Shown: one piece after another, positions 289 to 20,393 of the stretch
Numbering within the stretch: the first letter of the stretch is position 1
Layout: each line of letters starts with the position of its first letter
From: Lamprocystis purpurea DSM 4197
GTDB lineage: Bacteria; Pseudomonadota; Gammaproteobacteria; Chromatiales; Chromatiaceae
NCBI RefSeq assembly: GCF_000379525.1
Contig: NZ_KB902492.1
Span: 1-64,000 of the forward strand
DNA length: 64,000 nt
Reading direction: 5' to 3'
Notes under the pieces: model-generated
Told to the model about the DNA's origin: nothing
Seen by the model: the letters and a program-made list of their open reading frames with translations, nothing else
Database searches by the model: none
Position numbers and translations under genes: made by a program

Positions 289-301
289 GCCGAAATGATG
301 A

Positions 302-1429: not shown

Positions 1430-1435
1430 TGCGGT

Positions 1436-1750
1436 TCAGCGCTCGGTTGGCGGCTGATAGTTCGCGTCCTTGGGATTGAGAAAAATGAAGTGGAATTGGC
1501 CGGGCTCGATCTCGACATAGTCCATGATGGCCTCATCCAGCAAAGGCACCTGTTCCGGCGTCATGACGACATCGACCCCATCACAGCGCACGCGAATGTC
1601 GTCCTCGGTGGCTTCGTCGAACCCCATCCGGTAGTCGATCGATCCGTCGGGTTGACGCCCGGCTGCCAGACGCAATGGCAGGCCCAGTGCGCCCCCTTGC
1701 TTTGCCGCCGTGAGAACTTGTTGCGCCGCCGCCGTCGTCAGTTTGAACAT
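1436..1750 (-). CDS. dsrR: DsrR, A-type scaffold-like protein
   Basis: This 104-aa protein has the fold family of IscA/SufA A-type iron-sulfur carriers, with features such as LTTAAAQQV near the start and YRMGFDEATEDDIRV in the middle. It contains no cysteine, so it cannot carry a cluster in the way IscA does. Loss of the three IscA cysteines is the known hallmark of DsrR, which is required for proper dsr expression and sulfur-globule oxidation in A. vinosum. It lies between dsrN and dsrS, as in the reference operon, and is probably co-transcribed with them. Confidence 0.88.
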   Translation of the reverse strand: MFKLTTAAAQQVLTAAKQGGALGLPLRLAAGRQPDGSIDYRMGFDEATEDDIRVRCDGVDVVMTPEQVPLLDEAIMDYVEIEPGQFHFIFLNPKDANYQPPTER

Positions 1751-1821
1751 CGCGGATCTTTCCCGTTATACATGGTTAAACCGTCGTCAGTGTCATCCCC
1801 ACGGCGCTTGGGCGGCCACGC

Positions 1822-3207: not shown

Positions 3208-3263
3208 GGAAGAGACGAATCGGCTATGCGAGTGGCCGAGGACGCGGCCACCCTTTCCGCTAA

Positions 3264-4517: not shown

Positions 4518-4532
4518 TCTCCCCTGTTTGGC

Positions 4533-5363: not shown

Positions 5364-5866
5364 TGCCCTCCCGCGCGACCGGTCGCCGACCCCGGCGTGT
5401 CGGACATGATCTGCCCTGCGGATGGCCGCACGCCCGCGGCGGCATCACCATGCGCGGCCAGCGCCGCCGGACTCAATAGTCCGCCGCGCGGCACATTGGC
5501 ATGGCAGCCAAAACAGTTGACGTCCACGGCGCTGAAGGCATGGCAGGCGCCGCAGAACTGATCGCGACCGTTGATCGCGAGCGCATGCCCCTCCGGACTG
5601 ACACTGACGTGACAGTTGATACAACCGGCCAGGCTGTGCTTCGTGGACCGAATGCCATGATGCACGGTCGCATCACGCTGGTGCTTGATCAATTCCATGT
5701 GGTTGCGGCGCATGAAGTTCGTTTCCTCCACGCAGGCCGCGCTGTGGGCGGCCTGCGACCCCGGCTTCACGTACCGCTGTGCGTCGCCCGCCAGCACGGT
5801 CTGAGCGGCCAGCACCCAGACCAAACCAACGGCGACAAGGCTTACTCTAATGACGGCTATAGCCAT
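5360..5866 (-). CDS. dsrJ: DsrJ, periplasmic triheme cytochrome c
   Basis: This 168-aa protein has an N-terminal hydrophobic signal/anchor and three haem motifs: CINCH (82-86), CGACH (105-109) and CFGCH (118-122). An additional cysteine at residue 45 corresponds to the Cys that gives one DsrJ haem its unusual His/Cys ligation in A. vinosum. I chose the start at 5866 because the open frame upstream of it lacks signal-peptide character. The stop overlaps the dsrO start. DsrJ belongs to the DsrMKJOP complex, and its haems are thought to carry out sulfur chemistry or electron transfer in the periplasm. Confidence 0.93.
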   Translation of the reverse strand: MAIAVIRVSLVAVGLVWVLAAQTVLAGDAQRYVKPGSQAAHSAACVEETNFMRRNHMELIKHQRDATVHHGIRSTKHSLAGCINCHVSVSPEGHALAINGRDQFCGACHAFSAVDVNCFGCHANVPRGGLLSPAALAAHGDAAAGVRPSAGQIMSDTPGSATGRAGGQ

Positions 5867-5898
5867 CGACGCCTCCTTCGGTGCCGATTCGCGACCAC

Positions 5899-7863
5899 TC
5901 ACTCACCAAGACCCATCTTGATGTAGCCGGTCGGGCAAACGTCGGCGCAAATATGGCAACCGATGCACTTGGCATAGTCGGTAGCCACATAGCGACCCGT
6001 CGTCCGATCAGACTTCTCCACCCGATAGACCGCCGTCTGAGGACAGTAGATCACACAGTTGTCGCATTCGAAGCACATCCCGCACGACATGCAGCGCTTG
6101 GCCTCGTCGATGGTCTCGGCCTCGGTCAGACCGATGACACGCTCTTTGAAATGACCGAGCACTTCCTCGGAACTCGGCACCTCCTCTTTGCGCAGATTGC
6201 GGGCGTGATAATTGAAGTGCCCCAGGAACAACTCATCCTGCCCGATGACCTCGGCGCCGGAGCGATCCTCATAGTTATGGATCGCCCAGTTCCCGGTGGA
6301 GGTTCCGCGCAGATCGCCCAACTTGCTCGCCTCGAAGGCGGTCGGGGCCAGATTCGCCTCATTCATCTTCGCCAACAGGTCGAAATGGTGAACGTCCACC
6401 TTGGGACGGCGCCGGTGCTCGACCTGCTTGAGATATTCGTCGATCGAATCGGCGGCGATCCAGGCCTGGCCGATCGCGGTGGTCAGCAGGTGCGGACGAA
6501 TGATATCCCCGGCGACGAAATGACCCGGCTTGTTCGGCACCTGGTAATACTTATCCGAATTGATGAGACCGCGGCCGTTGTCGAGATCCGCAAGGCCCGT
6601 CAGGTCCCCGCCCTGGCCGATGGCGGACACGATCAGGTCGGCCGGAAGCACGCGCTCGGTGCCGTCAACCGCGGTCGGTCGACCGTCATTCAGGGTGCAG
6701 TCGGCGATCTTGAGACCGGTGGCACGACCGTCGGGTCCCAGCATGACCTCTACCGGCATGACGCCGTCAAGGATGGTGACACCCTCATGGGTCGCATCGT
6801 GCACCTCATGTTCCGAGGCGGTCATCTTGTCGCGGGTAAACAGCGAGGTGAGCGTCACCGCGGCGCCCTGGGCCGCCGCGGACATGGCCGCATCATGGGC
6901 GACGTAGCCGTCATGGACCACGGTTTCCGGCAGATCGCTGTGGCCCGGCTTATTGATGTGGCCCAGACGCCGCGCGACCGACACCACATCGATCGAGGTA
7001 TCGCCGCCGCCGACGCAGACCACCCGCTCGGCGGTGACCTTCATCCGGCCTTCATTGAAGGCCTTGAGGAACGCGACGCCGGAGACACAGTTCGGTGTCC
7101 CCTGCCAACCGGGCACCGGCAGCCCACGGCCACTCTGACAGCCGATCGCCCACAGGATCGCGTCGAAATCACGCTCCAGGTCGGCGACCTGGACGTCGAC
7201 ACCCACCCTGGTCTTGAAACGGACATCCACCTGGCCCAGGTCCAGGATGCGTTGAATCTCCGCATCCAGCTTGTCACGCGGGACCCGGTAACCGGGAATG
7301 CCGTACTTGAACATTCCGCCAAGCGTCTCGTTCGCCTCGAAGATGGTGCAGGCGTGGCCCTTGCGGCGCAACTGATAGGCCGCCGCCAGACCGGCCGGCC
7401 CGCCGCCGATGATGGCGACCCGCTTGCCGGTGTCCGCGGGAGCCGCGTCAAACCGGTAACCGTTGGCGATGGCGGTATCGCCGATGAACTGCTCGACCGC
7501 GTTGATCCCGACGAAGTCTTCGAGTTCATTGCGGTTACAGCCGTCCTGACAGGGCGCCGGGCAAACCCGGCCCATCATCGACGGGAACGGATTGGCATCG
7601 GTGGAACGGCGGAAGGCATATTCCTGCCAGGTCATTCCGGCCGGCGGCTTTTCGGTCTGCCGCGCGATGGCGAGCCAACCGCGGATATCCTCACCCGAGG
7701 GACAACTCCCCTGGCATGGCGGGGTCTTGTGCACATAGGTCGGACACTTGTGGGAGGTATCCTGCACAAAAATCTTGTCGGTCCAAGCTTCCCAGGTGCT
7801 ATTACCGTCCTCGTAACGGCGCCAGGAGGGCTTGTTCTTCTGCTCATTGCCGGGAGTTGCCAT
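5899..7863 (-). CDS. dsrL: DsrL, iron-sulfur flavoprotein NAD(P)H:acceptor oxidoreductase
   Basis: The 654-aa protein is a GltD-like oxidoreductase. It has a first FAD Rossmann motif (IIGGGPAGLAAAYQL), a second nucleotide motif (VCVGGGDTSIDVVSVA), an N-terminal cysteine cluster, and a C-terminal ferredoxin domain with CMSCGMCFECDNC and CIGCHICADVCP. DsrL interacts with DsrAB and takes electrons from sulfite formation to NAD+. It is essential for sulfur-globule oxidation in A. vinosum. It lies between dsrK (99 bases upstream) and dsrJ (32 bases downstream). The presence of dsrL marks the pathway as oxidative rather than sulfate-reducing. Confidence 0.95.
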   Translation of the reverse strand: MATPGNEQKNKPSWRRYEDGNSTWEAWTDKIFVQDTSHKCPTYVHKTPPCQGSCPSGEDIRGWLAIARQTEKPPAGMTWQEYAFRRSTDANPFPSMMGRVCPAPCQDGCNRNELEDFVGINAVEQFIGDTAIANGYRFDAAPADTGKRVAIIGGGPAGLAAAYQLRRKGHACTIFEANETLGGMFKYGIPGYRVPRDKLDAEIQRILDLGQVDVRFKTRVGVDVQVADLERDFDAILWAIGCQSGRGLPVPGWQGTPNCVSGVAFLKAFNEGRMKVTAERVVCVGGGDTSIDVVSVARRLGHINKPGHSDLPETVVHDGYVAHDAAMSAAAQGAAVTLTSLFTRDKMTASEHEVHDATHEGVTILDGVMPVEVMLGPDGRATGLKIADCTLNDGRPTAVDGTERVLPADLIVSAIGQGGDLTGLADLDNGRGLINSDKYYQVPNKPGHFVAGDIIRPHLLTTAIGQAWIAADSIDEYLKQVEHRRRPKVDVHHFDLLAKMNEANLAPTAFEASKLGDLRGTSTGNWAIHNYEDRSGAEVIGQDELFLGHFNYHARNLRKEEVPSSEEVLGHFKERVIGLTEAETIDEAKRCMSCGMCFECDNCVIYCPQTAVYRVEKSDRTTGRYVATDYAKCIGCHICADVCPTGYIKMGLGE

Positions 7864-7962
7864 CGGATCACTCTCCTTACCAGTTGAACCAGTGGGTTCG
7901 ATTCAGTTCGAAGACCGGGGCGACGCTGTCGCGTCGCGCCAGTGGGAATTATCGGGTCAGGC

Positions 7963-9540
7963 TCAGGCCGCCTCGTCTACGGACTCACTGTCATCGTCGT
8001 CCAGGGCTTGCGAATCGTCTTCGTCATCGTCATCCTCGTCGTCGTCTTCACGAGGCGTCAACACGATGGCGTTCGAGACCAGTTGATGGAGGCTGACGAT
8101 CTGGTCCATCTCCATCCCGTAGTAGGGCAGGACCTTGGTGAACTGACTCTTGCAGATGGCACAGATCGCGGCCATGTGCGTCACGCCCTTTTCCTGCATG
8201 ACATTGTTCAGCGCCTCGACACGCGGTTGCGCACCCTTGACCCGTAACTCCATCAGGTCGTCGGTCAGCAGTCCGCCGCCGCCGCCGCAACAGAAGGTTC
8301 GATCACGGATCGTATCTTCATCCATGTCGTAGAAGTGATTGCAGACCGCCTTGATGATGGCGCGCGGAATATCGAACTGACCGCCGGGCTGATCGCCCAT
8401 CCGCGAGGCCCGGGCGACATTGCAGGAGTCGTGATAGGTGAGGACCTTGTCATCGTTCTGGGTCTTGTCGAAGGTCAACTTCCCCTGCTGGATCAGGTCG
8501 TAGGTAAACTCGCAGATATGCTGCGGCACCGGGTACCGGGAATCCAGGAAGTCCCAGGGACCGGCGAGGGTGTTCAGAAAGCTGTAGGCGACGCGCCAGG
8601 CATGACCGCATTCACCGAAGATGATGCGCTTGACCTTGAGCCGGATGGCCTCTTCGCGAATGCGCTGCGAAATCCGCCGCATGTTCTCATAGGAGCCGAT
8701 GAACATGCCGAAGTTGGCCGCTTCCGAGGCATAGGAACTCAGCGTCCAGGAGACACCGGCCTCGTGTAAGACCTTGCCGTAGCCGATCAGGCCGTCCACG
8801 TGGGGTTCGGCAAAGAAGTCCGCGGACGGCGTGACCAGCAGGATGTCGGCACCCACCTGATCGATGGGATAGCGCACCTTGACGCCGGTTTCGTCATAGA
8901 CGTCCTCTTCCAAACCCTCCAGCGTATCCCGCAGGGCGGGACCCGGCAGACCCAGGTTATTGCCGATCGTATAGACCTTGCCGATGATCTCGTTACAGTA
9001 TTTTTGACCGACCCCGATACTGTCCATGATCTCCCGCGCGGCCATGGAGATCTCCGCGGTATCGATGCCGTAAGGACAGAAAACGGAGCAGCGGCGACAT
9101 TGAGAGCACTGGTGAAAGTAACTGTACCAGTCGTCCAGCACCTCTTTGGTGAAGTCGGTCGCTCCCACCAACTTGGGAGCAATCCGGCCCACCAGCGTGA
9201 AATAGCGCCGATAGACTTTGCGCATCAGGTCCTGACGCCCGACCGGCATGTTCTTCGGATCCTTGGTGCCCAGAAAATAGTGGCACTTATCCGTACAGGC
9301 GCCACATTTGACACAGGAGTCCATGTAGACGCGCAGCGAGCGGTACTTGCCCAGCAACTCGCCCATCTTCGCGATCGCCTGCGCCTGCCAGTCGTCCGCC
9401 AACTCGCCGGGAAAGCCCAGCGGGGCCTGGAATTCCGGTTTGGCTACAAAGGGCGCGCTGTGAGCCATGGTACCTGGCGTCACCGCCGGTACCTGCGGGT
9501 ACTGCCGCAGCGCAGGGACTACAAAAGTGGCCTTAGCCAT
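7963..9540 (-). CDS. dsrK: DsrK, HdrD-like iron-sulfur subunit
   Basis: The 525-aa protein has two ferredoxin cysteine clusters, Cys76/79/82/86 (CVKCGACTDKC) and Cys145/148/151/155 (CSQCRRCSVFC). It also carries CCG-type motifs of heterodisulfide reductases, namely FGECGHAW, YHDSCN and TFCCGGGGG, expected to hold a special catalytic [4Fe-4S] cluster. It acts on the cytoplasmic face with DsrM and is the proposed site of DsrC disulfide/trisulfide turnover. The last 30 or so residues form a very acidic, low-complexity tail dominated by Asp/Glu. I do not expect this tail from the HdrD core and it may vary between species. Confidence 0.93.
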   Translation of the reverse strand: MAKATFVVPALRQYPQVPAVTPGTMAHSAPFVAKPEFQAPLGFPGELADDWQAQAIAKMGELLGKYRSLRVYMDSCVKCGACTDKCHYFLGTKDPKNMPVGRQDLMRKVYRRYFTLVGRIAPKLVGATDFTKEVLDDWYSYFHQCSQCRRCSVFCPYGIDTAEISMAAREIMDSIGVGQKYCNEIIGKVYTIGNNLGLPGPALRDTLEGLEEDVYDETGVKVRYPIDQVGADILLVTPSADFFAEPHVDGLIGYGKVLHEAGVSWTLSSYASEAANFGMFIGSYENMRRISQRIREEAIRLKVKRIIFGECGHAWRVAYSFLNTLAGPWDFLDSRYPVPQHICEFTYDLIQQGKLTFDKTQNDDKVLTYHDSCNVARASRMGDQPGGQFDIPRAIIKAVCNHFYDMDEDTIRDRTFCCGGGGGLLTDDLMELRVKGAQPRVEALNNVMQEKGVTHMAAICAICKSQFTKVLPYYGMEMDQIVSLHQLVSNAIVLTPREDDDEDDDDEDDSQALDDDDSESVDEAA

Positions 9541-9623
9541 GGTTCAACCTCATGTTCGGACGCCTGCTTACCCGGAGACCCTGATCAATGCAGGTGATGA
9601 CGAAATGCAATCCGTGTCGGCCA

Positions 9624-10355
9624 TCACCGCTGTTCGAACCGCGCCGCCCAAGGGGCCAGGTGCCGCCGCTCCCTCGGGTTGTCGACCTGATTGCGGGTCG
9701 GGCTGAAGAAGAGCCCAGGCGCATGCAGCAGCTTGCTGAAGGGAAAAATGATCATCAGGCCCGCCACCAGCAACAAGTGCAGCAGGAGCAGCGGATCGGC
9801 CGGCAAGGGCTTCAGGTCGAAGCTGTACAGACCGAGAAAGAAGGCTTTAACGGACACGATATCCGTATGAACCACGAAACTCATCAGGATGCCGCTACAG
9901 CCGATGAGGACCAGCAGCCCGAGGATCAGGTGATCCGAGGGAGAAGAGATGTAGCGCACCCGGTCGACCAGGAAGCGCCGCGCCCAGAGTCCGGCCAGAC
10001 CCAGCACCATGGCAAACCCGGCATAGATCCCGAACGGCTGGATGAACGCGATCGGTGTGGGGACTGGGTCCATGAAATAGCGAAGATGACGCAGGGTCAC
10101 GAGAAACAAGCCAAAGTGAAAGATCCAACTGAAGATCCAAGTCCACTTGTTACCGCGGAACAGGCTCTCGAACAGCACCACCTCGCGCGTCATTCGCAAC
10201 ACGACGCCGCTGCCGGTGATCGGGGCTGGCGTCGTCGGTATCTTCAGTGGCGCCGGTGTACGGGCGTACTGCACCACCTTCCAGGTCAGTCCGGCAACCA
10301 GAACCAGCGCCGCAAAATAGAACGCGAAGGCGTATAAACCCGTCAGAAACGACAT
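9624..10355 (-). CDS. dsrM: DsrM, NarI-like membrane cytochrome b
   Basis: The 243-aa protein has about five to six hydrophobic helices and belongs to the NarI-type dihaem cytochrome b family. Histidines suited to haem ligation lie in the membrane segments. It anchors DsrK and exchanges electrons with the quinone pool. Its length fits the known DsrM. It starts the second half of the operon after a 229-base gap downstream of dsrC, the largest gap inside the operon. dsrC is often expressed more strongly than dsrMKJOP, and this gap is where processing or a second promoter could act. Confidence 0.9.
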   Translation of the reverse strand: MSFLTGLYAFAFYFAALVLVAGLTWKVVQYARTPAPLKIPTTPAPITGSGVVLRMTREVVLFESLFRGNKWTWIFSWIFHFGLFLVTLRHLRYFMDPVPTPIAFIQPFGIYAGFAMVLGLAGLWARRFLVDRVRYISSPSDHLILGLLVLIGCSGILMSFVVHTDIVSVKAFFLGLYSFDLKPLPADPLLLLHLLLVAGLMIIFPFSKLLHAPGLFFSPTRNQVDNPRERRHLAPWAARFEQR

Positions 10356-10584
10356 GTTTCCGCTACCTTAAGTGAATCCGGTCGAAAACCGGGGGTGCCG
10401 ACCGCTGACCCCGAACGGAGCGATCAGCGATCAGCTTGACTGGCACCGCGCTGCTGCCTGGCGAACCCCGAGGGTCTTGAGTCCAGGCTTTAGAAACGCT
10501 CGCAAGTCATTGTTATTTTATGGTCGGACGAGCGACAAGACGCCACCGTTGCGCGGCGGAGAGCGCCACCCGCAGGCACTCGGT

Positions 10585-10923
10585 TCAGACGCAGCCGGTC
10601 GGCTTCGGCAGGCCGGCAAAACGGCACGCCTGCTTGGCCGGCCCGTAGGGGAACAGGCTGTAGAGGTACTTGCTGTTGCCTTTGTCCTTGCCCATCTTCT
10701 TACCGACCGCCTTGGTCAGCACGCGCACCGCCGGTGCAATCTGATACTCTTCGTAATACTCGCGCAGGAACTTGATGATGTCCCAGTGCTCGTCGGTGAG
10801 ATCAATGTTGTCCTGCTTCGACATGACCTCGGCGACGCCGGGCTCCCAGTCGTTCAGATTGGCGAGGTAACCCTCTTCGTCGACGGCGATCTGTTTGCCA
10901 TTGACATCAATTGTGTCGGCCAT
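10585..10923 (-). CDS. dsrC: DsrC, sulfur-carrier protein
   Basis: This 112-aa protein ends in the flexible arm of DsrC with both functional cysteines, Cys100 (KQACRFAGLPK) and penultimate Cys111 (TGCV). Cys111 accepts sulfur from DsrEFH/TusA and presents persulfide to DsrAB. The Cys100-Cys111 pair then forms the tri- or disulfide that DsrMK is thought to reduce or oxidise. It follows dsrH directly. Compare the second DsrC-family gene at 17094, which has lost both cysteines. Confidence 0.96.
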   Translation of the reverse strand: MADTIDVNGKQIAVDEEGYLANLNDWEPGVAEVMSKQDNIDLTDEHWDIIKFLREYYEEYQIAPAVRVLTKAVGKKMGKDKGNSKYLYSLFPYGPAKQACRFAGLPKPTGCV

Positions 10924-10960
10924 TGCGATTCTCCAGACAGTTTTTTAAGTTGGAATATAA

Positions 10961-11269
10961 CTACAGCCAGGCCTGAACCTTGGCGTTCTCCGCGGCAAGA
11001 TCCACAAAACCCGCGTAGTCCACGACGCTGATCCCGTTGATCAGACGCCCCTCGGCAAAGCCCCGCGCCTTCAGGTCCGGGCCGAGGACATAGATCTTAA
11101 CCCTGTTGAGGGCATCTTTGACCTGATCCTCGGCGCTCGTCCCGGTCAGGGCCGCATAGACGCCGTCCTCGATCAGCAACACGGCGGCGCCCGGTTGGGC
11201 AAACTTCAAGCAGGAATCCAGTGAGGTCCGCTCGAACGGAGACTTGTTGACAGTGTGCAGGATACTCAT
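10961..11269 (-). CDS. dsrH: DsrH, subunit of the DsrEFH sulfur transferase
   Basis: The 102-aa protein is a TusB homologue of the DsrE/F/H fold. It has the conserved cysteine at residue 20 (LDSCLKFAQPG) and the family's C-terminal YAGFVDLA pattern. DsrE2F2H2 passes persulfide sulfur to DsrC. The gene lies 11 bases after dsrF and 37 bases before dsrC in the usual order. Cys20 is present, though in this family the DsrE cysteine does most of the catalysis. Confidence 0.93.
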   Translation of the reverse strand: MSILHTVNKSPFERTSLDSCLKFAQPGAAVLLIEDGVYAALTGTSAEDQVKDALNRVKIYVLGPDLKARGFAEGRLINGISVVDYAGFVDLAAENAKVQAWL

Positions 11270-11280
11270 GGCATTCCCCT

Positions 11281-11691
11281 TTAGAAGCTGAAGACCACGT
11301 CGGACGCATCCATCAGCTCGCGGACACGAGCCGTATCGATCACCTCGACGATGTTCTCCACCTCTTCCTCGGTGTCGAAATCTTCCCAGGCGATCTGCAC
11401 CAGATCGTCCTGCGTCAAACCGCGGGCCGCGAGTGAATCGCGATCAACGTACACATTTTTGACCTCATAGTCGCCCAGGGTACGGAAGGTCGGCGAGAAA
11501 TTCTTCATCCCGATGCCGCTGGTGTCCTGACCCTTGGTGAGTTGGTAAACACCGTCATCCAGAAAGAGGACGCTCACCTCCTGATCGAAGGCCGCACCGA
11601 TCAGGATCACCTCCAAGGCCTCCCAGGCGTAGATGGTGCCATACGGGGCTTTGCGATTCAGGTACAGGAATTTCTTCACGATTTCGGACAT
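11281..11691 (-). CDS. dsrF: DsrF, subunit of the DsrEFH sulfur transferase
   Basis: The 136-aa protein is a TusC homologue (KKFLYLNRKAPYGT near the start, DDGVYQL in the middle). The start at 11691 (MSEIVKK) was chosen over a much longer upstream open frame because the family begins here and the longer frame runs through dsrE. It is the middle subunit of the cytoplasmic DsrEFH heterohexamer. It contains no cysteine, in keeping with DsrF being a structural subunit. Confidence 0.93.
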   Translation of the reverse strand: MSEIVKKFLYLNRKAPYGTIYAWEALEVILIGAAFDQEVSVLFLDDGVYQLTKGQDTSGIGMKNFSPTFRTLGDYEVKNVYVDRDSLAARGLTQDDLVQIAWEDFDTEEEVENIVEVIDTARVRELMDASDVVFSF

Positions 11692-11704
11692 GACTGAGCC
11701 CCTG

Positions 11705-12097
11705 TTAGTCGCCGAATACAACGAGGCGATCGGACTGGATCGCCGCCTCGACCAACTGCCCCAGACCGGAGATCCGGAACCGGGGGTGGATATTGGTGGC
11801 GTCCTTACCGTTGCGTGTCGCCTCGCCCTCATCGACGATCCCGCGGCGCTGCGCCGCGGCCACGCAGACCACCATGTCGAGGTTGTAGCGCTCGGCCAGC
11901 TCAGCCCACCGGTTCACGATGTGACGGTCGTCCTGGGGCGGCGTGGTCAGCCGCGTCGCGTTGTTCACGCCGTCGTGGTAGAAAAAAACGCGGAAGATCT
12001 CATGCCCCTTCTCCAACGCCGCCTTGGCGAACAGGTAGGCGGTATCCGCCGCCTGATGTTGGTAGGGTCCCTCGTTGATCTGAAGTGCAAACTTCAT
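11705..12097 (-). CDS. dsrE: DsrE, catalytic subunit of the DsrEFH sulfur transferase
   Basis: This is a 130-aa TusD homologue with the active-site cysteine at residue 78 (LDMVVCVAAAQRRG), the same number as in A. vinosum DsrE. That cysteine carries the persulfide passed to DsrC Cys111. The start at 12097 (MKFALQINEGPYQ) matches the family. It begins the efh block 132 bases after dsrB, a gap without another gene. Length and order match the reference operon. Confidence 0.95.
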   Translation of the reverse strand: MKFALQINEGPYQHQAADTAYLFAKAALEKGHEIFRVFFYHDGVNNATRLTTPPQDDRHIVNRWAELAERYNLDMVVCVAAAQRRGIVDEGEATRNGKDATNIHPRFRISGLGQLVEAAIQSDRLVVFGD

Positions 12098-12229
12098 ATC
12101 GCCCTCGCATAGCAGTGCCGAAAGAGGATCGCGCACGGCCGCCCCCGGATCAGGCGCCACCGCTGCTGCCGTCCGGAGCGGACCGGCAGGTCGGTGACAC
12201 GCGGCCCCGGGGACCCCGCGCCCCCGAGC

Positions 12230-13300
12230 TTAGAAGCGGATGTAAGACGAGCTGTTGAAGCTCGCACGGGCACCGCGCCAGGTATCGATGTGATACTTGG
12301 TGAATGGCAGCTCGACCTCTTCGAAGAAGCGCGGCCAGCCGATCCGCTCGATCCACTCGTTGACGCGCTCCCAATCCCGGGCACCTTCCTTGTACGCCTT
12401 GAGGATGCGCTTGACGATGGCGGTTGCCTCAGGCCAGCGCGGCGGGTTGTTGGGGATGCCGGCCGCAACCAGCTTCTGGAAGGTCGGCTTGCCGCGGGCG
12501 TTGGAGTGATTGCCGCCAACCCAGATCGCCAGCTTGGAGTGCTCGGCGTCATTGATCTGCATGGGCGGGCACGGCGGGTAGCAGGCACCGCAGCAGATGC
12601 ACTTGCGTTCGTCGACCTCGAGGGACGGCTTGCCGTTGACCATGGCCGGGCGGATGGCCGCGACCGGGCAGCGCGCCACGACGGTCGGGCGCTCACAGAC
12701 GTTCGCTACCAGATCGTGGTTGATCTTGGGCGGCTTGGTATGCTGGATGTTGATCGCGATATCGCCCTGGCCGCCGCAGTTGATCTGGCAGCAGGAAGTC
12801 GTGATGTGCACCCGGTTCGGCATGTTCGCATTGCGAAACTCGTCGATCAGCTCGTCCATCATCGACTTCACCACGCCCGAGGCGTCGGTGCCGGGAATAT
12901 CGCAGTGCAGCCAGCCCTGGGTGTGAGAAATCATGGCCACCGAGTTCTGGGTGCCGCCGACCACAAAACCCGCCCCTTCCAGAGCCGCGATCAGCGGGTC
13001 GACCTTGGCCTGATCCTTGACCAGAAACTCGATATTCGAGCGCAAGGTAAAGTGCACGAAGCCATCGGCGAACTGATCACCGATATCGCACAGCTTGCGC
13101 AGCGTGAAAACGTCCAGGATTCGCTGGGTACCGGCCTTGACGGTCCAGATTTCGTCGCCGCTGTAGGCAACGTGACGCAGCACGCCCGCGCGCGGATGTT
13201 CGTGGAACTTCCATTGCCCGAAATTCTTGCGCATCACGGGGTGCAGGTACTGCCAAGGGTCTGGGCAGCCGGATTCGATCGGCTCACGCGTGTCTGCCAT
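12230..13300 (-). CDS. dsrB: DsrB, dissimilatory sulfite reductase beta subunit
   Basis: The 356-aa protein has the siroheme/ferredoxin sulfite reductase architecture. The cysteine cluster TSCCQINCGG lies near residue 170, and an inserted ferredoxin domain carries CICCGACYPPCPP and a separate ARCPVAAI cysteine. The start at 13300 (MADTREPIE) fits the family; six extra upstream codons are also open. With DsrA it forms the alpha2beta2 enzyme that, in this reverse-type pathway, oxidises DsrC-bound sulfur to sulfite in the cytoplasm. It lies 96 bases after dsrA. Confidence 0.96.
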   Translation of the reverse strand: MADTREPIESGCPDPWQYLHPVMRKNFGQWKFHEHPRAGVLRHVAYSGDEIWTVKAGTQRILDVFTLRKLCDIGDQFADGFVHFTLRSNIEFLVKDQAKVDPLIAALEGAGFVVGGTQNSVAMISHTQGWLHCDIPGTDASGVVKSMMDELIDEFRNANMPNRVHITTSCCQINCGGQGDIAINIQHTKPPKINHDLVANVCERPTVVARCPVAAIRPAMVNGKPSLEVDERKCICCGACYPPCPPMQINDAEHSKLAIWVGGNHSNARGKPTFQKLVAAGIPNNPPRWPEATAIVKRILKAYKEGARDWERVNEWIERIGWPRFFEEVELPFTKYHIDTWRGARASFNSSSYIRF

Positions 13301-13396
13301 CGCCTTCCCTCCAGTCAATTATCAGAGTGTTTTGTATTTGAAATCGGGTGCCGGGGCGAGCGGACGCCCGCGGCATCACGGCGTTGATCGAGAAAC

Positions 13397-14650
13397 TCAG
13401 CGCCCGGCCTCGGCCTGACGCTCGAACCAGTTTTCCGCGGCCTCGTCCCAACCGTCCAGGCGGATGTAGGAACTCTGACGGGGATGGCTCAGCATGTTCG
13501 GGTCCGGATCGACGCCAATGCCGTCAAGGAAGTTGGCCAACCCGATGCGCTCGATCATCTCGCCGCAGCGCTCGTGTTCGAGCCCGTTCTCGGCCCAGAA
13601 ATCGATGATGGTCTCGGCGAGCTCCACCAGAGATTCGTAGTCTTCCTCGGTATCAAGCTTCTTGAACGGCACCAGCACAGTGCCCATCAGGTCACCGATC
13701 TTGAGGGTGCGCTTACCGCCGATCAGAATGGTGACACCCTTATCGTCGCCGGGGTGCAGCGCCTTGGGCATGACGTTCAGACAGTGCATGCAGCGCACGC
13801 AGTCGCGGTTGTTGACGTTCAGGGTATCGTCATCGTTGAGCGACAACGCCTGCGTCGGACAACGGGTGATGACGTTGTCCACATAGTACTGACGGCCCTT
13901 GTCGGCGATGTAGTTCTTCACCTCGGCCTGGTCGACTTTCATATCGTCGCGCCAGGTGCCAAGCACGGCGAAGTCGGCGCGCTCGATGGCGTTCTGGCAG
14001 TCGTTGGCGCAGCCGGAGACCTTGAACTTGAATTTGTAAGGGAGCGCCGGACGGTGCACGTCATCGACGAAGTTGTTCACCAGCATCCGGTGGGCCTTGA
14101 GCTCATTGGTGCAGGACATCTCGCAACGCGCCGCGCCGACGCAGGACATGGCGGTGCGCACGCAGGGGCCGGCGCCGCCCAGATCCCATCCGTACTCGTT
14201 GATCTCGTCGAAGAAATGCTGGGTGTTGGCGGTGTCGGTGCCGATAAACATGATGTTGCCGGTCTGACCATGGAAGGTGATCAAACCGGAACCGTATTTT
14301 TCCCAACTGTCGGCCAGTTGGCGCAGCATGGCGGTGGAGTAGTGGTTGCCCGCCGGCGGCTGCACACGCAAGGTATGGAATTCCTTGGATTCAGGGAACG
14401 CCTTACCGACCTCGGAGAAGCGCGGGATGATACCGCCGCCATACCCTAAGACCGACACAGTCCCGCCCTTCCAGTAGCCCTTGCGCGTCTCGTAGGAATG
14501 CTCCAACTGCCCGAGCAGGCTGTTGGTCATCTTATTGATGCGTTCATCCGGGTGCTGGTCGCGCAGACGCTTGATACCAGAGATAAAACTTGGCCACGGG
14601 CCGGTTTCCAGTTGATCGAGCATCGGGGTGCTGTATTTATCGATCGCCAT
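13397..14650 (-). CDS. dsrA: DsrA, dissimilatory sulfite reductase alpha subunit
   Basis: The 417-aa protein has the siroheme-[4Fe-4S] motif Cys170-x5-Cys176 (CVGAARC) plus Cys214-x3-Cys218 (GCANDC). Its ferredoxin domain is marked by DCVRCMHCLNVMPKA and ITRCPTQAL. The start at 14650 (MAIDKYSTP) is favoured by a GGAGAG sequence about eight bases upstream; the frame is open for 22 more codons. Length equals the A. vinosum subunit. It is the first gene of the 15-gene operon and fixes the pathway as sulfur oxidation through reverse sulfite reductase. Confidence 0.97.
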   Translation of the reverse strand: MAIDKYSTPMLDQLETGPWPSFISGIKRLRDQHPDERINKMTNSLLGQLEHSYETRKGYWKGGTVSVLGYGGGIIPRFSEVGKAFPESKEFHTLRVQPPAGNHYSTAMLRQLADSWEKYGSGLITFHGQTGNIMFIGTDTANTQHFFDEINEYGWDLGGAGPCVRTAMSCVGAARCEMSCTNELKAHRMLVNNFVDDVHRPALPYKFKFKVSGCANDCQNAIERADFAVLGTWRDDMKVDQAEVKNYIADKGRQYYVDNVITRCPTQALSLNDDDTLNVNNRDCVRCMHCLNVMPKALHPGDDKGVTILIGGKRTLKIGDLMGTVLVPFKKLDTEEDYESLVELAETIIDFWAENGLEHERCGEMIERIGLANFLDGIGVDPDPNMLSHPRQSSYIRLDGWDEAAENWFERQAEAGR

Positions 14651-15195
14651 TGCGCTGTCTCTCCGATCTGGTAGCTTGCGAAAAAGAATCCGATCGCAGT
14701 GCGCACACCCGAACACGGCAGCGGGCCGTTACGGGGCGCTACATCGTTGCGAATCTAAAGACGGAGGGATCGGCGATCATTCATATTTTCGCGTGCCGAA
14801 ATCCCCAGCGTCAGGCGCTACTTTAAAGGCCGGTCCGGGGCGATCCCATCCCTCGGTGGGGAGGGCGATACCGCTCCGACCTACCCCTTTCGGGATATTG
14901 ACCAACCTGGTGCCGCTGCGGATGTCCTCCGGCATGTCGCGGCGCGGGCGCGTCTTTCGATGACCGGTTGGATGTTACCGATGGGCGGCCGGTCAGTCAA
15001 CGGTTACTAATATTAGCACATCCTAATGCATACGTGCAGCCTGGGCTGGAAGCGGTCCGGTTCCAGGTCGGCGCGGCGCGGCGCGGACGACACCGTCGAC
15101 GCTGTGCACGGCGATGCGCGGCACGCTTGCATTTCCGCAGAACGGTCTTCACGTTCGCCACCAGACACAGGCATTCAGGGCGGTCTCATCGAACC
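14651..15195 (+). promoter_or_regulatory. Divergent control region between dsrA and the 15196 gene set
   Basis: This 545-base stretch contains no supportable gene and separates two divergent transcription units. It must hold the dsr promoter on the minus strand and that of the 15196 set on the plus strand. The most distinctive patch is AT-rich in a GC-rich background and includes the perfect palindrome CTAATATTAG at 15007-15016, followed by TCCTAATGCAT. I could not place clear -35/-10 boxes. The palindrome is a reasonable operator or promoter candidate, but this is inference. Confidence 0.45.
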
Positions 15196-15387
15196 ATGCT
15201 CAAGCTCAGCGATATTCTCGTGACCCATCAAGAGGTCGAGTCCTTCGGCGAACTCATCCCGCTGGTTCAGGACGTCGCCCGCGGCGGTGAGCGTTTCTTC
15301 CGGATGGACGTGAAACCACCCTACCCGGATACGCCGGACAATTGGGAAGATCGCCTGGAAGCCGCTTTTAGCGGCCTGGTCCGCTAG
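15196..15387 (+). CDS. Small conserved-looking protein, 63 aa, unknown function
   Basis: The gene encodes a 63-aa soluble protein (MLKLSDILVTHQEVE at the start) with an acidic, proline-rich C-terminal half (PPYPDTPDNWEDRLE). I do not recognise a family. The ATG at 15196 is preceded by about 180 bases that are also open but look non-coding. It ends seven bases before the next gene in the same direction, so the two are very likely co-transcribed. It is the first gene facing away from dsrA, which suggests a role linked to sulfur metabolism or to its regulation. Confidence 0.6.
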   Translation: MLKLSDILVTHQEVESFGELIPLVQDVARGGERFFRMDVKPPYPDTPDNWEDRLEAAFSGLVR

Positions 15388-15394
15388 TTCCGTG

Positions 15395-16126
15395 ATGCCT
15401 ACTCCTATGATCAACCCGCTCGATCTGCTGACCGTCAGCTTGACCAATCCGACCGGCGACCCCGAACTCGGTCAGAGTGAACGCGCCGCCCTGGAGTCCC
15501 ATCTCGACGCGCTCCGGGAACATCTGCGCGAGCTGGAGCGCCGCGACGGACCGGCAAAGGCGGTCGCCGACACCCGTCTGCAGGTCGCACGCACCCTGGT
15601 CGGATTAGGGCGCGGGGAAGCGGCTTGGCCACTCGCCCGCGCGGCATTCGATCGGTTCCTTGAGGCCGACGACTTCGAATCCGCGGCCGACGCCTGCGAC
15701 GTGTTGTTCCAAGCCGAACAACCCGCATCGATCTGCGCTTTGGGTCAGGGCATCTGGCTGGCGGTCACCTGCCCCATCGATCCGGAACTCACCATCGAGT
15801 TGCTGGCTCATGTCATCGACGAGACCCCGGACGATGCGGACGGGGCCGCGGTCGCGGCGACCACCGCCCTGTTCCTGGCGGACGTGCGTGCCGAGGGCAA
15901 ACAGCGCGACGACCTGATGTTCTTCACCACGCAATTACTCGGTGCCGTGGCGCGGCGGCACAGCGGGGTGGAATCACCCGAGCAACTCGACGCCTGGATG
16001 GAACGACTGGACCTGACCCAGCCGGAGCACTTCCTGGTGCGCTTACGCAGCGTCGTCGATTGTCTGGTTCAGGGAGACTGGTGGTTCGATCGCGAAGCAC
16101 TGCAAGCGCGTTTACCCTTTGGCTGA
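15395..16126 (+). CDS. Helical (TPR-like) protein of unknown function
   Basis: The 243-aa protein is almost entirely predicted helix, with Ala/Leu/Arg-rich pairs such as LESHLDALREHLRELERR and RTLVGLGRGEAAWPLARAAF that resemble tetratricopeptide-type repeats. There is no signal peptide or membrane segment. The start could be the ATG at 15395 or the one at 15407. It sits between the 63-aa gene and the Cas6-like gene with short gaps, so it is probably part of the same operon. No catalytic motif is visible. A scaffolding or protein-binding role is inference only. Confidence 0.65.
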   Translation: MPTPMINPLDLLTVSLTNPTGDPELGQSERAALESHLDALREHLRELERRDGPAKAVADTRLQVARTLVGLGRGEAAWPLARAAFDRFLEADDFESAADACDVLFQAEQPASICALGQGIWLAVTCPIDPELTIELLAHVIDETPDDADGAAVAATTALFLADVRAEGKQRDDLMFFTTQLLGAVARRHSGVESPEQLDAWMERLDLTQPEHFLVRLRSVVDCLVQGDWWFDREALQARLPFG

Positions 16127-16209
16127 GCGCTCCTGCCTGCCCTCAACAGCGCGCCCGTCCCCCAGGATAGCAGTTGAGGAGGCATGTCATTACCCTGTCG
16201 CGAGTATCT

Positions 16210-16896
16210 ATGTACTGGAGTCAAGACGAAACCCTCGACGCCCTGGCCGTCCCCGACACCATTGTCGACTGCCTCTTCGCCATCGATTGTCGCGCCCTGC
16301 CGGTCGATCACGCCTATGCGCTGAGCAGCGCGCTGGTCGCCGCCTGCCCCTGGATCGGCGACGAACCGGGGCTCGGCGTCCACACGGTTCACGTCGCCGG
16401 CTCCCAGAATGGGTGGGAGCGCCCGGCCCACGGCACTGAGACCCGGATCCAGTTGTCGCGCCGCACCAAACTCATTCTGCGGCTGCCCCGGGCGCGCGCG
16501 CCCGAGTTACTCGACGCGCTGCCCGGAACCCGGATCGAGGTCGCCGGCTCGCCGTTGATCGTCGGCGCGGGCAAGATGCGGTCGCTGAGCACAGAGAGCG
16601 TGCTGTTCGCCCGCTATCTGGCGTCTGCCGCGGGTCCGGATGAGGAGGCCTTCATGAACAGCGCTGCCCAGGCGCTGGCACAGTTGGGGATCAGTATCCG
16701 CAAGGCGCTTTGCGGCAAGTCGAACACGCTGGAAACGCCAAACGGCGCGATCACGACCCGCAGCCTGTTGCTCGCCGGACTGAAACCTGATGAGTCGCTC
16801 CGACTGCAACAGCAGGGACTCGGGCTCCACCGCCTCATGGGATGTGGAATCTTCATCCCGCATAAAGGGATCGACGCGGTCGGCAAGACCCCCTGA
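16210..16896 (+). CDS. Orphan Cas6/Cmx6-like RNA endonuclease-family protein
   Basis: The 228-aa protein resembles the Cas6/Cmx6 family (type I-MYXAN Cas6). Its N-terminal part reads DCLFAIDCRALPVDHAYALS, with a histidine in the first helix, and the C-terminal glycine-rich loop is QQGLGLHRLMGCGIFIPHKG. Cas6 proteins cut CRISPR precursor RNA, but no array or other cas gene lies in this window. I chose ATG 16210 (MYWSQDE). The frame is open from a TTG at 16174, directly followed by AGGAGG, so an upstream start or extra regulation is possible. It sits between a helical protein and a DsrC paralogue beside the dsr operon, suggesting a host RNA-processing role. Confidence 0.72.
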   Translation: MYWSQDETLDALAVPDTIVDCLFAIDCRALPVDHAYALSSALVAACPWIGDEPGLGVHTVHVAGSQNGWERPAHGTETRIQLSRRTKLILRLPRARAPELLDALPGTRIEVAGSPLIVGAGKMRSLSTESVLFARYLASAAGPDEEAFMNSAAQALAQLGISIRKALCGKSNTLETPNGAITTRSLLLAGLKPDESLRLQQQGLGLHRLMGCGIFIPHKGIDAVGKTP

Positions 16897-17002
16897 AGAA
16901 CTAAGGCGAGAACTCGGGCGATTTCCGTCAAATCCGGCAATCCCCGAACGCGGGGCCTCTGACGGCCCGTGACGACCTCATGAGAGACCGTGACGAACCT
17001 AT

Positions 17003-17034
17003 CAGAATATCATAAAATTACGAGGCTTTAATTG
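17003..17034 (+). promoter_or_regulatory. AT-rich promoter-like patch before the DsrC-like gene
   Basis: This 32-base stretch is markedly AT-rich (CATAAAATTACGAGGCTTTAA within it) in an otherwise GC-rich region, and it lies 60-90 bases before the DsrC-like ATG. It offers several possible -10 boxes, but I see no convincing -35. It suggests the DsrC-like gene has its own promoter in addition to any read-through from the upstream set. Confidence 0.35.
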
Positions 17035-17093
17035 GCGCGCCCGCTGGTGTGCGCCATGACCACCCACAGATACAGACGACGAGGAACAAGCAC

Positions 17094-17432
17094 ATGGCCA
17101 TCGAGGTCAATGGCGTAAGCATCGAGACGACCGACCACGGCTACCTGGTCAACCACCTCGACTGGAACGAGGATGTCGCGCGCAAGCTCGCGGAGATCGA
17201 GGGGATCACGCTCACCGACAAACACTGGGACGTCATCAACTACCTGCGTGACGAGTACATCAACAACGGTCAGAACCAGCCGATGGAACGCGCTGTTCTC
17301 AAAGACATCGGCAAACGCTGGGGTACCAAACCCGCCAGCAAGGACCTTTATCTCCTCTTCCCCTTGGCCCCGACCAAACAGGGTACCAAGATTGCCGGTC
17401 TCCCCGAAGTGATGCGCAAAGGCGGCTACTGA
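17094..17432 (+). CDS. DsrC/TusE-family protein lacking both functional cysteines (RspA-like)
   Basis: This 112-aa protein aligns end to end with DsrC (start MAIEVNGVSIET; core LTDKHWDVINYLRDEY). The C-terminal arm reads TKQGTKIAGLPEVMRKGGY, so Thr replaces the first cysteine and the penultimate cysteine is gone. There is no cysteine in the whole protein. It therefore cannot carry sulfur like the true DsrC at 10585. Cysteine-less DsrC relatives have been called RspA and proposed to act in regulation or in binding partner proteins. It follows the Cas6-like gene by 197 bases and is closed by a strong hairpin. Confidence 0.85.
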   Translation: MAIEVNGVSIETTDHGYLVNHLDWNEDVARKLAEIEGITLTDKHWDVINYLRDEYINNGQNQPMERAVLKDIGKRWGTKPASKDLYLLFPLAPTKQGTKIAGLPEVMRKGGY

Positions 17433-17458
17433 GACGGTGCCGCGCGGGGCATCGCAGC

Positions 17459-17484
17459 GGGCCGGCCACACCTGGGGCCGGCCC
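17459..17484 (+). terminator. GC-rich hairpin after the DsrC-like gene
   Basis: A perfect stem GGGCCGGCC (17459-17467) pairs with GGCCGGCCC (17476-17484) around an 8-base loop, 27 bases after the DsrC-like stop. No run of T follows, so termination may be Rho-assisted or weak. It separates the DsrC-like gene from the deacetylase and argues against the GTG start at 17437 for the latter. Confidence 0.55.
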
Positions 17485-17511
17485 GTGCCTTGGCCTGCCG
17501 AGCAACCGTCA

Positions 17512-18525
17512 ATGCCGGCCACGCGACCACAACGACCACCGCAAGCAGCCGCCCCCCACCTCGCCCGGTTTGGGCAACGGCTGATACTCAGCACCCTGCA
17601 CCGGCTGATTCGCGTCGATACGCCACCGCGCCTCGCGGTGCTGATTTTCCATCGCGTGCTGCCCACCCCGGACCTCTTCCTGGCGAGCGACCCGGACGTC
17701 CAGGCCTTCACCGCACTGATGCAGCTGATCCGTGAGCGCTTCTCGCCCCTGTCCTTGGCCGAAGGACTGCACCGACTCGCGCGCAACACCCTGCCGCCGC
17801 GCGCGGTCAGTATCACCTTCGATGACGGCTACGCCGACAACCTCAAAGTCGCTCTCCCCGTCTTACAGCGCCTGGAAATTCCCGCCACCCTGTTCATCGC
17901 CAGCGGCTACCTCGACGGCCGGTGCATGTGGAATGATCAACTCTGTCAGGCGATCCGGCGCTGCCCCGGCACCAGCGTCGATCTGACCGCCTACGGCGCC
18001 GGTATCCGGCCGCTGGGCGGACCGCGCGAGCGCGCGATGCTGGCGCAGGACCTGCTTCGTTTGTTCACCTACGAAGCATCGGAGCCGCGCGAACAAGTGG
18101 CGGCGGAACTTGCGGCCCGCTATGCACCGGACCTCACCTCACCCATGCTCACCCGCACGCAGGTCCGGGAACTTGGCGACCAGGGGATCGAAATCGGCGG
18201 TCATACCGTCACCCATCCGATCCTCGCACGGACCCCGGATCAGACGGCCTATCGGGAGATCGCCGAGAACAAAGAGGATCTCGAAGGACTGCTGGGCCGG
18301 CGCTTGCGCTTTTTCGCCTACCCCAATGGCAAGCCGGACCTGGATTTCACCGCGACGCATGCCGCCATGGCTCGCACACTCGGGTATCAGGCGGCGTTGA
18401 CCACGGGGCATGGGGTCGCCGTGGCCGGCACGGACCCCATGCGCCTCCCCCGGTTCACCCCCTGGGAGCGGACGCCCACGCGCTTCGGTATCAGGCTGCT
18501 GTTGAACATGCGGCACACCGCCTAG
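17512..18525 (+). CDS. Polysaccharide deacetylase family (NodB domain) protein
   Basis: The protein of about 337 aa has carbohydrate esterase 4 motifs: LIFHRVLPTP, then SITFDDGYADN with the metal-binding aspartates, HTVTHP as the histidine motif, and FAYPNGKPD later. It should remove acyl groups from an extracellular polysaccharide or its precursor. I prefer the ATG at 17512 because a GTG at 17437 lies before the hairpin that closes the previous gene. It precedes an exosortase-A-type accessory module and two glycosyltransferases, so exopolysaccharide modification is the natural setting. Confidence 0.82.
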   Translation: MPATRPQRPPQAAAPHLARFGQRLILSTLHRLIRVDTPPRLAVLIFHRVLPTPDLFLASDPDVQAFTALMQLIRERFSPLSLAEGLHRLARNTLPPRAVSITFDDGYADNLKVALPVLQRLEIPATLFIASGYLDGRCMWNDQLCQAIRRCPGTSVDLTAYGAGIRPLGGPRERAMLAQDLLRLFTYEASEPREQVAAELAARYAPDLTSPMLTRTQVRELGDQGIEIGGHTVTHPILARTPDQTAYREIAENKEDLEGLLGRRLRFFAYPNGKPDLDFTATHAAMARTLGYQAALTTGHGVAVAGTDPMRLPRFTPWERTPTRFGIRLLLNMRHTA

Positions 18526-18560
18526 TCAACGAGTCAAGAACAAGGTAAACACGAATATAA

Positions 18561-18718
<158 letters not shown>

Positions 18719-18791
18719 GATCATGGTGCTAACGGCATTCCCTATCATCCTTAACCGCGCGAGCGACCGGACCCGCTGACACCGCACCGAC

Positions 18792-20393
18792 ATGCCCAAC
18801 ATCACACTGGTGCACGAATTGGTTCATATGGCCCTGTCGCGGTCCGCCGATCGGGACGCCCTGATCCACCGCACCGAGACCCTCACTTATCGGGCGCTGT
18901 GGCAGCTCATCGGACACTGGCGCGCCGGACTGCTCAGACTGGGACTCGAGGCCGGCGACCGGGTCGGCGTGTACTTACCCAAGGGGTTCGACACCCTGGG
19001 GGCGCTCTTCGGTACGGCCGCGGCGGGCGGCTGTTTCGTGCCGCTGAACCCGCTGATCAAGCCATTTCAGGTCGCCCACATCCTGCACGACTGCAACGCG
19101 CGCATCCTGGTGACCTCAGTCGAGCGGGCGCGACGCCTGGTTACCGCGCTGACCCAGTGCCCTGACCTGCGGCAGGTGGTGCTGGTCGACGGCTTACCGG
19201 CTGACATCGCCGAACCCTTGCGCGCCCGCTGCGTCTGCGCCGCCGACCTCCTGAGCGACACCGGCGGCGGCTCCGCCGGGCACCGCCGCATCGACACCGA
19301 CATGGCCGCCATCCTCTACACCTCAGGCAGCACCGGCGCACCCAAGGGCGTGGTGCTCTCGCACCGCAACCTGATCGCCGGGGCGCTGAGCGTTGCCGAG
19401 TATCTGGAAAACCGGCCGGAGGACCGTCTGCTCGCGGTCCTGCCATTGAGTTTCGACTATGGACTGAGCCAATTCACCACCGCTTTTGCCGCCGGTGCGG
19501 CGGTCGTCCTGATGGACTACCTGCTGCCCACTGACGTGATCCGAGCCGTCACCCACTACGGCATCACCGGACTGGCGGCGGTGCCGCCGCTCTGGATCCA
19601 GGTCGCCGGACTCGACTGGCCGCAAGCCGCCCGGACCTCGCTGCGCTACCTCACCAACTCCGGCGGGTCGCTGCCCGCCCCCACCTTGCAGACCTTGCGC
19701 AGCCGGCTGCCGAACACCCGGATCTATCTGATGTATGGGTTGACCGAGGCCTTCCGCTCGACCTATTTGCCCCCGGATCAGGTCGATGCACGTCCCGACT
19801 CCATCGGCAAAGCCATCCCCAACGCCGAGGTCCTGGTGGTGCGGGAGGACGGCAGCCGGTGCGGACCAGATGAACCCGGCGAGCTGGTGCATCGCGGCGC
19901 GCTGGTGTCCCTGGGCTACTGGAACGACCCCGCACGGACCCGCGAACGCTTCCGGCCGGCGCCGGGCCAGCCCGGTGGACTCCCCAACCCGGAACTGGCC
20001 GTCTGGTCGGGCGATCAGGTCCGCCGCGATGCGGACGGTTACCTCTATTTCATCGGCCGCCGGGACGAGCAGATCAAGACGTCCGGGTACCGCATCAGCC
20101 CCACCGAGGTCGAAGCGGTGGTCTACGGCTCGGGGCTGGTGGCCGAGGCGGCAGCCATCGGTGTCCCGCACGGGACCCTTGGCCAGGCGATCCTGGTCGT
20201 CGCCACGGCCGCGCGGGATCATGCCGGCCTCGAATCACGGGTCATCGCGCATTGCCGCGATACCCTGCCCGGCTTCATGGTGCCCCAACGGGTCCTGTTC
20301 GCGTCGGACCTGCCGCGGAATCCAAACGGCAAGATCGACCGCAGGTTCCTGGCCTCGCGTTTCGAGAATTACTTTCGCGGGGAATCTTCCTGA
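18792..20393 (+). CDS. Acyl-CoA ligase (AMP-forming), exosortase A-associated type
   Basis: The 533-aa enzyme is an ANL-superfamily ligase with the P-loop ILYTSGSTGAPKGVVLSH, the YGLTEAFRSTYLPP motif, the hinge GRRDEQIKTSGYRISPTE and the C-terminal catalytic lysine in NPNGKIDRR. It activates a carboxylic acid as adenylate and probably loads it on CoA or on the acyl carrier protein at 25947. The next gene, a PLP decarboxylase, overlaps its stop by one base (TGATG). This ligase-decarboxylase pair is the signature of the exosortase-A-associated biosynthetic module. Its substrate is unknown. Confidence 0.88.
   Translation: MPNITLVHELVHMALSRSADRDALIHRTETLTYRALWQLIGHWRAGLLRLGLEAGDRVGVYLPKGFDTLGALFGTAAAGGCFVPLNPLIKPFQVAHILHDCNARILVTSVERARRLVTALTQCPDLRQVVLVDGLPADIAEPLRARCVCAADLLSDTGGGSAGHRRIDTDMAAILYTSGSTGAPKGVVLSHRNLIAGALSVAEYLENRPEDRLLAVLPLSFDYGLSQFTTAFAAGAAVVLMDYLLPTDVIRAVTHYGITGLAAVPPLWIQVAGLDWPQAARTSLRYLTNSGGSLPAPTLQTLRSRLPNTRIYLMYGLTEAFRSTYLPPDQVDARPDSIGKAIPNAEVLVVREDGSRCGPDEPGELVHRGALVSLGYWNDPARTRERFRPAPGQPGGLPNPELAVWSGDQVRRDADGYLYFIGRRDEQIKTSGYRISPTEVEAVVYGSGLVAEAAAIGVPHGTLGQAILVVATAARDHAGLESRVIAHCRDTLPGFMVPQRVLFASDLPRNPNGKIDRRFLASRFENYFRGESS

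Follow-up and report, generated by a model that had tools for sequence, protein, structure and literature searches.

A Cas6-family protein encoded opposite dsrA: a probable non-CRISPR companion of reverse dissimilatory sulfite reductase in Gammaproteobacteria

The cas6 gene facing dsrA and its product

We analysed a stretch of 64,000 nucleotides from Lamprocystis purpurea DSM 4197 (contig NZ_KB902492.1, positions 1 to 64,000; hereafter the window), in which a gene for a Cas6-family protein faces the dsr operon for reverse dissimilatory sulfite reductase (rDsr). The gene belongs to a set of four on the plus strand, divergent from dsrA: orf63, orf242, cas6 and a gene for a DsrC paralogue, called DsrC' here. 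This arrangement had been described in an initial annotation of the sequence, and its coordinates were as claimed there. The genome (6.9 Mb in 211 contigs) contains one match to the Cas6 family PF09559. The genes and features concerned are listed below, with the basis of each assignment in brackets.

15196..15387, plus strand: orf63, conserved 63-residue protein with no known domain (reading frame)
15398..16126, plus strand: orf242, conserved protein of about 242 residues with no known domain (reading frame)
16210..16896, plus strand: cas6, PF09559/Cmx6-like protein of 228 residues with no CRISPR link, H34 and the loop GLGLHRLMGCGIFIPHK kept (profiles, alignment)
17094..17432, plus strand: DsrC', cysteine-free DsrC/TusE paralogue of 112 residues, C-terminus RKGGY replacing the GCV tail (PF04358, alignment)
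13397..14716, minus strand: dsrA, which opens the divergent dsr operon (TIGR02064, 664 bits)
12230..13318, minus strand: dsrB (reading frame; as a query it finds kin adjoining dsrA in other loci)
10585..10923, minus strand: true DsrC, with both C-terminal cysteines present, in contrast to DsrC' (alignment)
14882..14897, minus strand: a probable DNA operator rather than a Cas6 target, upstream of dsrA, with the palindrome TATCCC-N4-GGGGTA

The cas6 product matched PF09559 over its full length (E 4e-64, 216 bits, cut-off 26.7) and scored 126 bits against TIGR02807 (cut-off 98.85). Membership of the Cas6/Cmx6 family, proposed earlier from motifs, is therefore confirmed by both hidden Markov models. 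A profile of 34 dsr-linked sequences matched, over positions 15-220, PDB chain 8fcj_B from a type I-B Cas6 (E 6e-27), and from homology to this solved chain we infer a tandem ferredoxin-like (RAMP) fold for the window protein. Comparison by hhalign of dsr-linked Cas6 with five Cmx6 proteins from cyanobacterial plasmids, all of which adjoin cas3 plus cas8a1 or cmx8 in their records, gave a probability of 99.9 (E 1e-31, 191 columns). The CRISPR-type relatives were reached solely with the 8fcj_B stretch as query; a plasmid search queried with the window Cas6 returned no match.

The glycine-rich loop and the helix-1 histidine had been thought to be kept, and an alignment of 110 distinct dsr-linked sequences agrees. 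In the loop, G205 is present in 109 sequences and G211 and G213 in all 110. The histidine (H34), presumably the catalytic helix-1 residue of Cas6 enzymes, is found in 108, the exceptions being L017, which is cut short there, and L055; it is invariant at the same place in the five plasmid Cmx6 proteins. R85, R91, E145 and G169 (110/110) and K219 (109/110) are conserved as well. As these last positions are presumably not catalytic, they would suit a regulator without a nuclease role, in which the Cas6 fold serves to bind RNA or the partner DsrC'. A clade-specific insert around SQNGWERP, seen in the main clade of dsr-linked Cas6, and the absence of the histidine from L055 are compatible with such a protein. 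The histidine nevertheless occupies the same place as in plasmid Cmx6 in nearly every sequence, and we consider binding alone unlikely, though deserving of real weight. We strongly infer RNA binding from these sequences, and lean towards the view that the dsr-linked Cas6 is still an RNase.

Association with dsrA rather than CRISPR

Distribution was examined in two samples, one of 55 related genomes, L. purpurea included, and one of 397 genomes across the phylum; dsrA was called by the TIGR02064 cut-off. Cas6 was present in 37 of the 55 related genomes. All 37 have dsrA, 32 above the cut-off and 5 (G002, G009, G018, G020 and G032) as fragments on the same contig as cas6, whereas dsrA exceeded the cut-off in 0 of the 18 genomes without Cas6 (Fisher test, 7e-15). 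Every dsrA-positive genome among the 55 thus keeps cas6, nearly always as a single match. In the phylum sample dsrA was above the cut-off in 39 genomes, of which 33 belong to other classes and 6 to the window's own. Cas6 was found in exactly those 6, and in none of the other 391 genomes. Carriers among named, deposited purple sulfur bacteria include Allochromatium palmeri, Thiocystis violacea and Thiorhodococcus minor. A. humboldtianum and A. warmingii carry it too, so that A. vinosum probably does as well.

At least 574 of 588 pattern matches in the genome collection encode a Cas6 relative. Neighbourhoods were counted in the best 80 of these confirmed relatives, as named loci, a set biased toward near kin. 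At 66 loci the sequence extends 3 kb or more upstream; dsrA was present in 61 of these, orf63 in 63 and orf242 in 55. DsrC' was present in 59 of the 70 loci with at least 800 bases downstream. No array was seen at any of the 80 with a crude detector. Homologues at these 80 loci therefore do not lie mainly beside CRISPR arrays, the finding that would have refuted the initial interpretation. When 20 relatives were read over about 12-17 kb, dsrA was found in 19, orf63 in 18, orf242 in 17 and DsrC' in 16, on the expected strands. Four distant members (G255, G237, G271 and G361) have cas6-DsrC' facing dsrA; orf63 and orf242 were not found in them by tblastn with the window proteins, a search that may miss remote kin.

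The loci without upstream dsrA were L059, L060, L065, L111 and L121. At L111, cas6 faces frames that by eye resemble dsrE, F, H, C and M. At L059, from Thiosymbion, no query gene lies within 6 kb of cas6; at L072, also from Thiosymbion and with 2.5 kb of upstream sequence, a DsrC-like frame with a GCV tail was present and dsrA was not seen. At L045, in genome G042, orf63 is the only one of these neighbours present, and in G413 about 4 kb with other genes separates cas6 from dsrA.

A rival reading is a Cas6 that serves CRISPR arrays elsewhere in the genome in trans, with its proximity to dsr incidental. The genome of L. purpurea has four Cas1 matches, on contigs C14, C36 and C132, with none on C129, which carries the window. 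Cas1 occurs in 30 of the 55 related genomes, and is commoner with Cas6 (27/37) than without (3/18; Fisher test, 1e-4, a comparison confounded by kinship). The NCBIfam and PADLOC models, moreover, label the window protein as a CRISPR protein. Against service in trans, no Cas1 was matched in 10 of the 37 genomes that have Cas6, three genomes (G019, G039 and G054) have Cas1 and lack this Cas6, and within the window's class Cas6 and dsrA co-occur without exception in both samples. A tree of 42 proteins, with the root assumed, also has 35 dsr-linked sequences separated by a single branch with support 100/99 from 7 CRISPR-type ones, the latter including the plasmid protein L139, which is without cas neighbours in the stretch shown. 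We regard service in trans as very improbable.

The initial annotation had reported no CRISPR array, and the crude detector likewise found none in the window, where not every gene was scanned for other cas families. Arrays were detected in 2 of 142 scanned sequences, both cyanobacterial plasmids. With no array, Cas1 on other contigs only and dsr neighbours in relatives, the window cas6 is not in a CRISPR-cas locus. Because its product passes the TIGR02807 cut-off, automatic annotation can mislabel a sulfur-oxidation gene as a CRISPR gene, and in many genomes, given at least 574 relatives.

L139 (Gloeobacter morelensis plasmid, 3971-4762) is a sixth plasmid Cmx6, located near PAPS-reductase-family and cupin genes. 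No cas3 or cas8 is annotated within 4 kb of it, and it is perhaps another Cas6 outside CRISPR.

Comparison of coding sequences shows cas6 to be under purifying selection, with ratios of non-synonymous to synonymous substitution (dN/dS) of 0.14-0.20 in four pairs; those of dsrA and dsrB were 0.014-0.10. A gene carried along with the dsr cluster as a passenger, having no role of its own, would account for the cluster staying intact in most of the loci read. It would not account for these ratios, for the retention of cas6 by every dsrA-positive relative among the 55, or for its being kept also away from dsrA (L059 and G042), and is scarcely credible. Taken together, these results make it very probable that an exapted, non-CRISPR Cas6 is a companion of rDsr in Gammaproteobacteria.

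The other genes of the set gave fewer clues. The window orf63 and orf242 proteins fell below every family cut-off, with weak matches only, and no cut-off was reached by relatives of orf242 against Pfam and NCBIfam or of orf63 against Pfam. Two of 18 orf242 relatives weakly matched PF09485 (best E 0.0011, 19.8 bits, cut-off 24.6), so that Cse2/Cas11 was considered. An hhalign comparison with seven Cse2 matches, six of them above the family cut-off, gave a probability of 1.2, and this identity was rejected.

In other classes, orf63 faces dsrA in 5 of 12 dsrA-positive loci without Cas6, and 4 of those 5 also have tauD. A gene for a TauD/TfdA-family dioxygenase, divergent from dsrA, was seen at L104 (4097-5050), L075 (3869-4843), L150, L153, L154, L155 and others. 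Where the dsrA-orf63 gap is long, a TauD-like gene lies in it on the cas6 strand (8/8 loci examined by eye; the two tested both matched PF02668); the window's own gap has none. Since orf63 and tauD also occur at loci of other classes without Cas6, the tauD-orf63 pair seems to be the older element, to which the window's class appears to have added Cas6 and orf242. By eye, the place that orf242 and cas6 take after orf63 in Gammaproteobacteria is occupied at L151, L154 and L155 by a gene for a protein of about 70-116 residues; at L154 and L155 a siroheme-synthase-like gene comes next. Elsewhere in the window, a simple-sequence run of which several frames read as repeats of DN or V lies at about 18600-18790, between genes at 17437-18525 and 18792-20393.

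The DsrC paralogue and the search for an RNA target

The DsrC' protein of the window matched PF04358 (E 1e-32) and contains no cysteine, as expected from its description as a cysteine-free DsrC paralogue. The aligned tails read KQAC...GCV in true DsrC and KQGT...RKGGY in DsrC', so that the penultimate cysteine and the second cysteine of the C-terminal arm are both lost. Because of this loss, DsrC' would be unable to carry sulfur. The GGY end was found in 80 of 83 distinct DsrC' sequences (at least 45% identity), and the other three run off the contig or locus end. L106, L129 and L132 have one cysteine each, outside the tail; the distant DsrC' proteins of L051 and L053 also have one each, that of L053 at the inner active place only. 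We take RspA to be a name for cysteine-less DsrC-like proteins. A second cysteine-free DsrC-like type, ending TKGEH, occurs at L185 and L186.

In nine genomes DsrC' was not seen beside cas6. Eight of these have a DsrC' with the RKGGY end elsewhere, and in G042 none was found. DsrC' was rejected as an obligate partner of Cas6: at least 4 of 14 searched dsrA-positive genomes without Cas6 keep one, and DsrC' is therefore not dependent on Cas6. An AT-rich block at about 16988-17025 (TGACG..ATCA..ATCATAAAATT) lies upstream of DsrC' in the window, perhaps as its promoter, and the block is common to this cas6-DsrC' gap in many aligned Chromatiaceae.

The initial annotation had offered trimming of the long dsr transcript as an example of what the Cas6 might do. 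Hairpins in the gaps between dsr genes were compared by fold z-score, with n = 5-6 sequences on the side lacking Cas6. Median scores with and without Cas6 were -1.14 and -1.22 for dsrA-B, -1.65 and -1.45 for dsrC-M, -0.17 and -0.25 for dsrH-C, and, in the opposite direction, -0.31 and -1.51 for dsrB-E. Rfam gave six weak matches on window 10300-17600, none close to the gathering score. No repeats that could serve as multiple Cas6 sites were recognised among the matches listed for window 1-18600. The 229-nucleotide dsrC-dsrM gap (window 10356-10584) folds into long hairpins, and strong hairpins occur in this gap in some other genera also, with unlike sequences.

A palindrome, TATCCC-N4-GGGATA, is conserved in dsrA upstream regions (for example at L061 and L075, and at 14882-14897 on the minus strand of the window); the exact pattern was found once in the L. 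purpurea genome. It is followed by a GTGGAATGG box and then a -10-like TACATTA, an arrangement likely to represent the dsrA operator and promoter. The palindrome was considered as a Cas6 RNA hairpin (6-8 bp, GAAN loop) and rejected. It lies upstream of the -10-like box, and variants at L057 and L042 break the pairing, with no compensatory pair change seen. One palindrome scan required pairing and was hence biased; a later scan did not. The position and the pairing-breaking variants together lead us to read the palindrome as, probably, a DNA operator.

With dsr-gap hairpins just as strong in genomes without Cas6 and the conserved palindrome behaving as a DNA site, trimming of the long dsr transcript is so far unsupported. 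What is supported of the initial interpretation is a Cas6 outside CRISPR that is bound to dsr across genomes. An endoribonuclease of the rDsr regulon might instead act on a tRNA, a small RNA or some other message. The dsr gaps showed no hairpin peculiar to genomes with Cas6, and cas6 is retained apart from dsrA in L059 and G042, as a target outside dsr would allow. Deep branches of the class nevertheless share the gene order facing dsrA, an argument for a partner or target within the pathway itself, and we judge a target outside the dsr transcript to be rather unlikely.

Proposed role and relation to known systems

We propose that a Cas6 was recruited from CRISPR immunity and became a single-copy accessory of the rDsr pathway. 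It would bind structured RNA, probably cleaving at the base of a hairpin in the manner of Cas6. The RNA would be one of sulfur oxidation, most simply the dsr or dsrC' message, so that levels of Dsr proteins would be set after transcription, with DsrC' as a regulatory partner. A dsr-related RNA as the target is a tentative assignment, for which we would claim slightly less than an even chance. The whole chain, from exaptation through RNA cutting and a sulfur-oxidation RNA to the DsrC' partner, is put forward with the same reserve. More doubtful, although possible, is that this is the first Cas6 with a settled non-CRISPR job, as a dedicated endoribonuclease that cuts a specific hairpin RNA and sets reverse Dsr output together with a cysteine-dead DsrC partner.

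Several observations weigh against this proposal. Genomes with Cas6 have dsr-gap hairpins no stronger than those of genomes lacking it, and no substrate was found. In other classes, 0 of 33 dsrA-positive genomes have Cas6, and rDsr there works without it. The Cas1 excess among Cas6 genomes and the persistence of DsrC' in genomes lacking Cas6 have been given above. In G042, cas6 and dsrA are on separate contigs, and neither dsrA nor DsrC' is near cas6. The helix-1 histidine is replaced by tyrosine in the dsr-linked L055 and by asparagine in the solved relative 8fcj_B, so that it may be dispensable in some Cas6 proteins of this group. Finally, cas6 evolves faster than dsrAB, with dN/dS of about 0.15 compared with 0.02 in two same-genus pairs.

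In a published A. vinosum transcriptome the dsr genes move unequally (dsrA log2 -4.7, dsrC -1.2), which speaks for control beyond one promoter and hence for the proposal. That study points to a separate dsrC promoter rather than RNA cutting, and reports a TusE/DsrC-like gene, Alvin_1508, that falls along with the dsr genes (PMC11267869) and may or may not be this DsrC'. In those parts of the literature that our search covered, mostly without subscription papers, reports mentioning Cas6 and dsr together made no link between them, and no study was found of such an added layer of control in rDsr. If the proposal is correct, a CRISPR RNA-cutting enzyme has been recruited for host gene control, in effect as a post-transcriptional switch of CRISPR origin that acts on sulfur oxidation.

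Compared with known systems, the likeness to the Cascade subunit CasE, the Cas6 of type I-E, is confined to the segment of the glycine-rich loop (E 0.66-0.77), with no match in the rest of the window Cas6. DsrC' belongs to the DsrC/TusE/DsvC sulfur relay family (PF04358, TIGR03342), having the same length as true DsrC and aligning with it throughout, but it lacks both active C-terminal cysteines. The closest counterparts of the dsr-linked Cas6 are the Cas6/Cmx6 proteins of type I-MYXAN and I-B (PF09559, TIGR02807, 8fcj chain B), with which it shares full-length homology and the glycine-rich loop GLGxxRxxGCGxFxP, and it has the Asp-His helix-1 motif in common with the six plasmid Cmx6 proteins. 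It differs from the type I-MYXAN and I-B proteins in having no array or cas3/cas8 neighbours, in forming its own branch, in the SQNGWERP insert of its main clade, and in its linkage to dsr and DsrC'.

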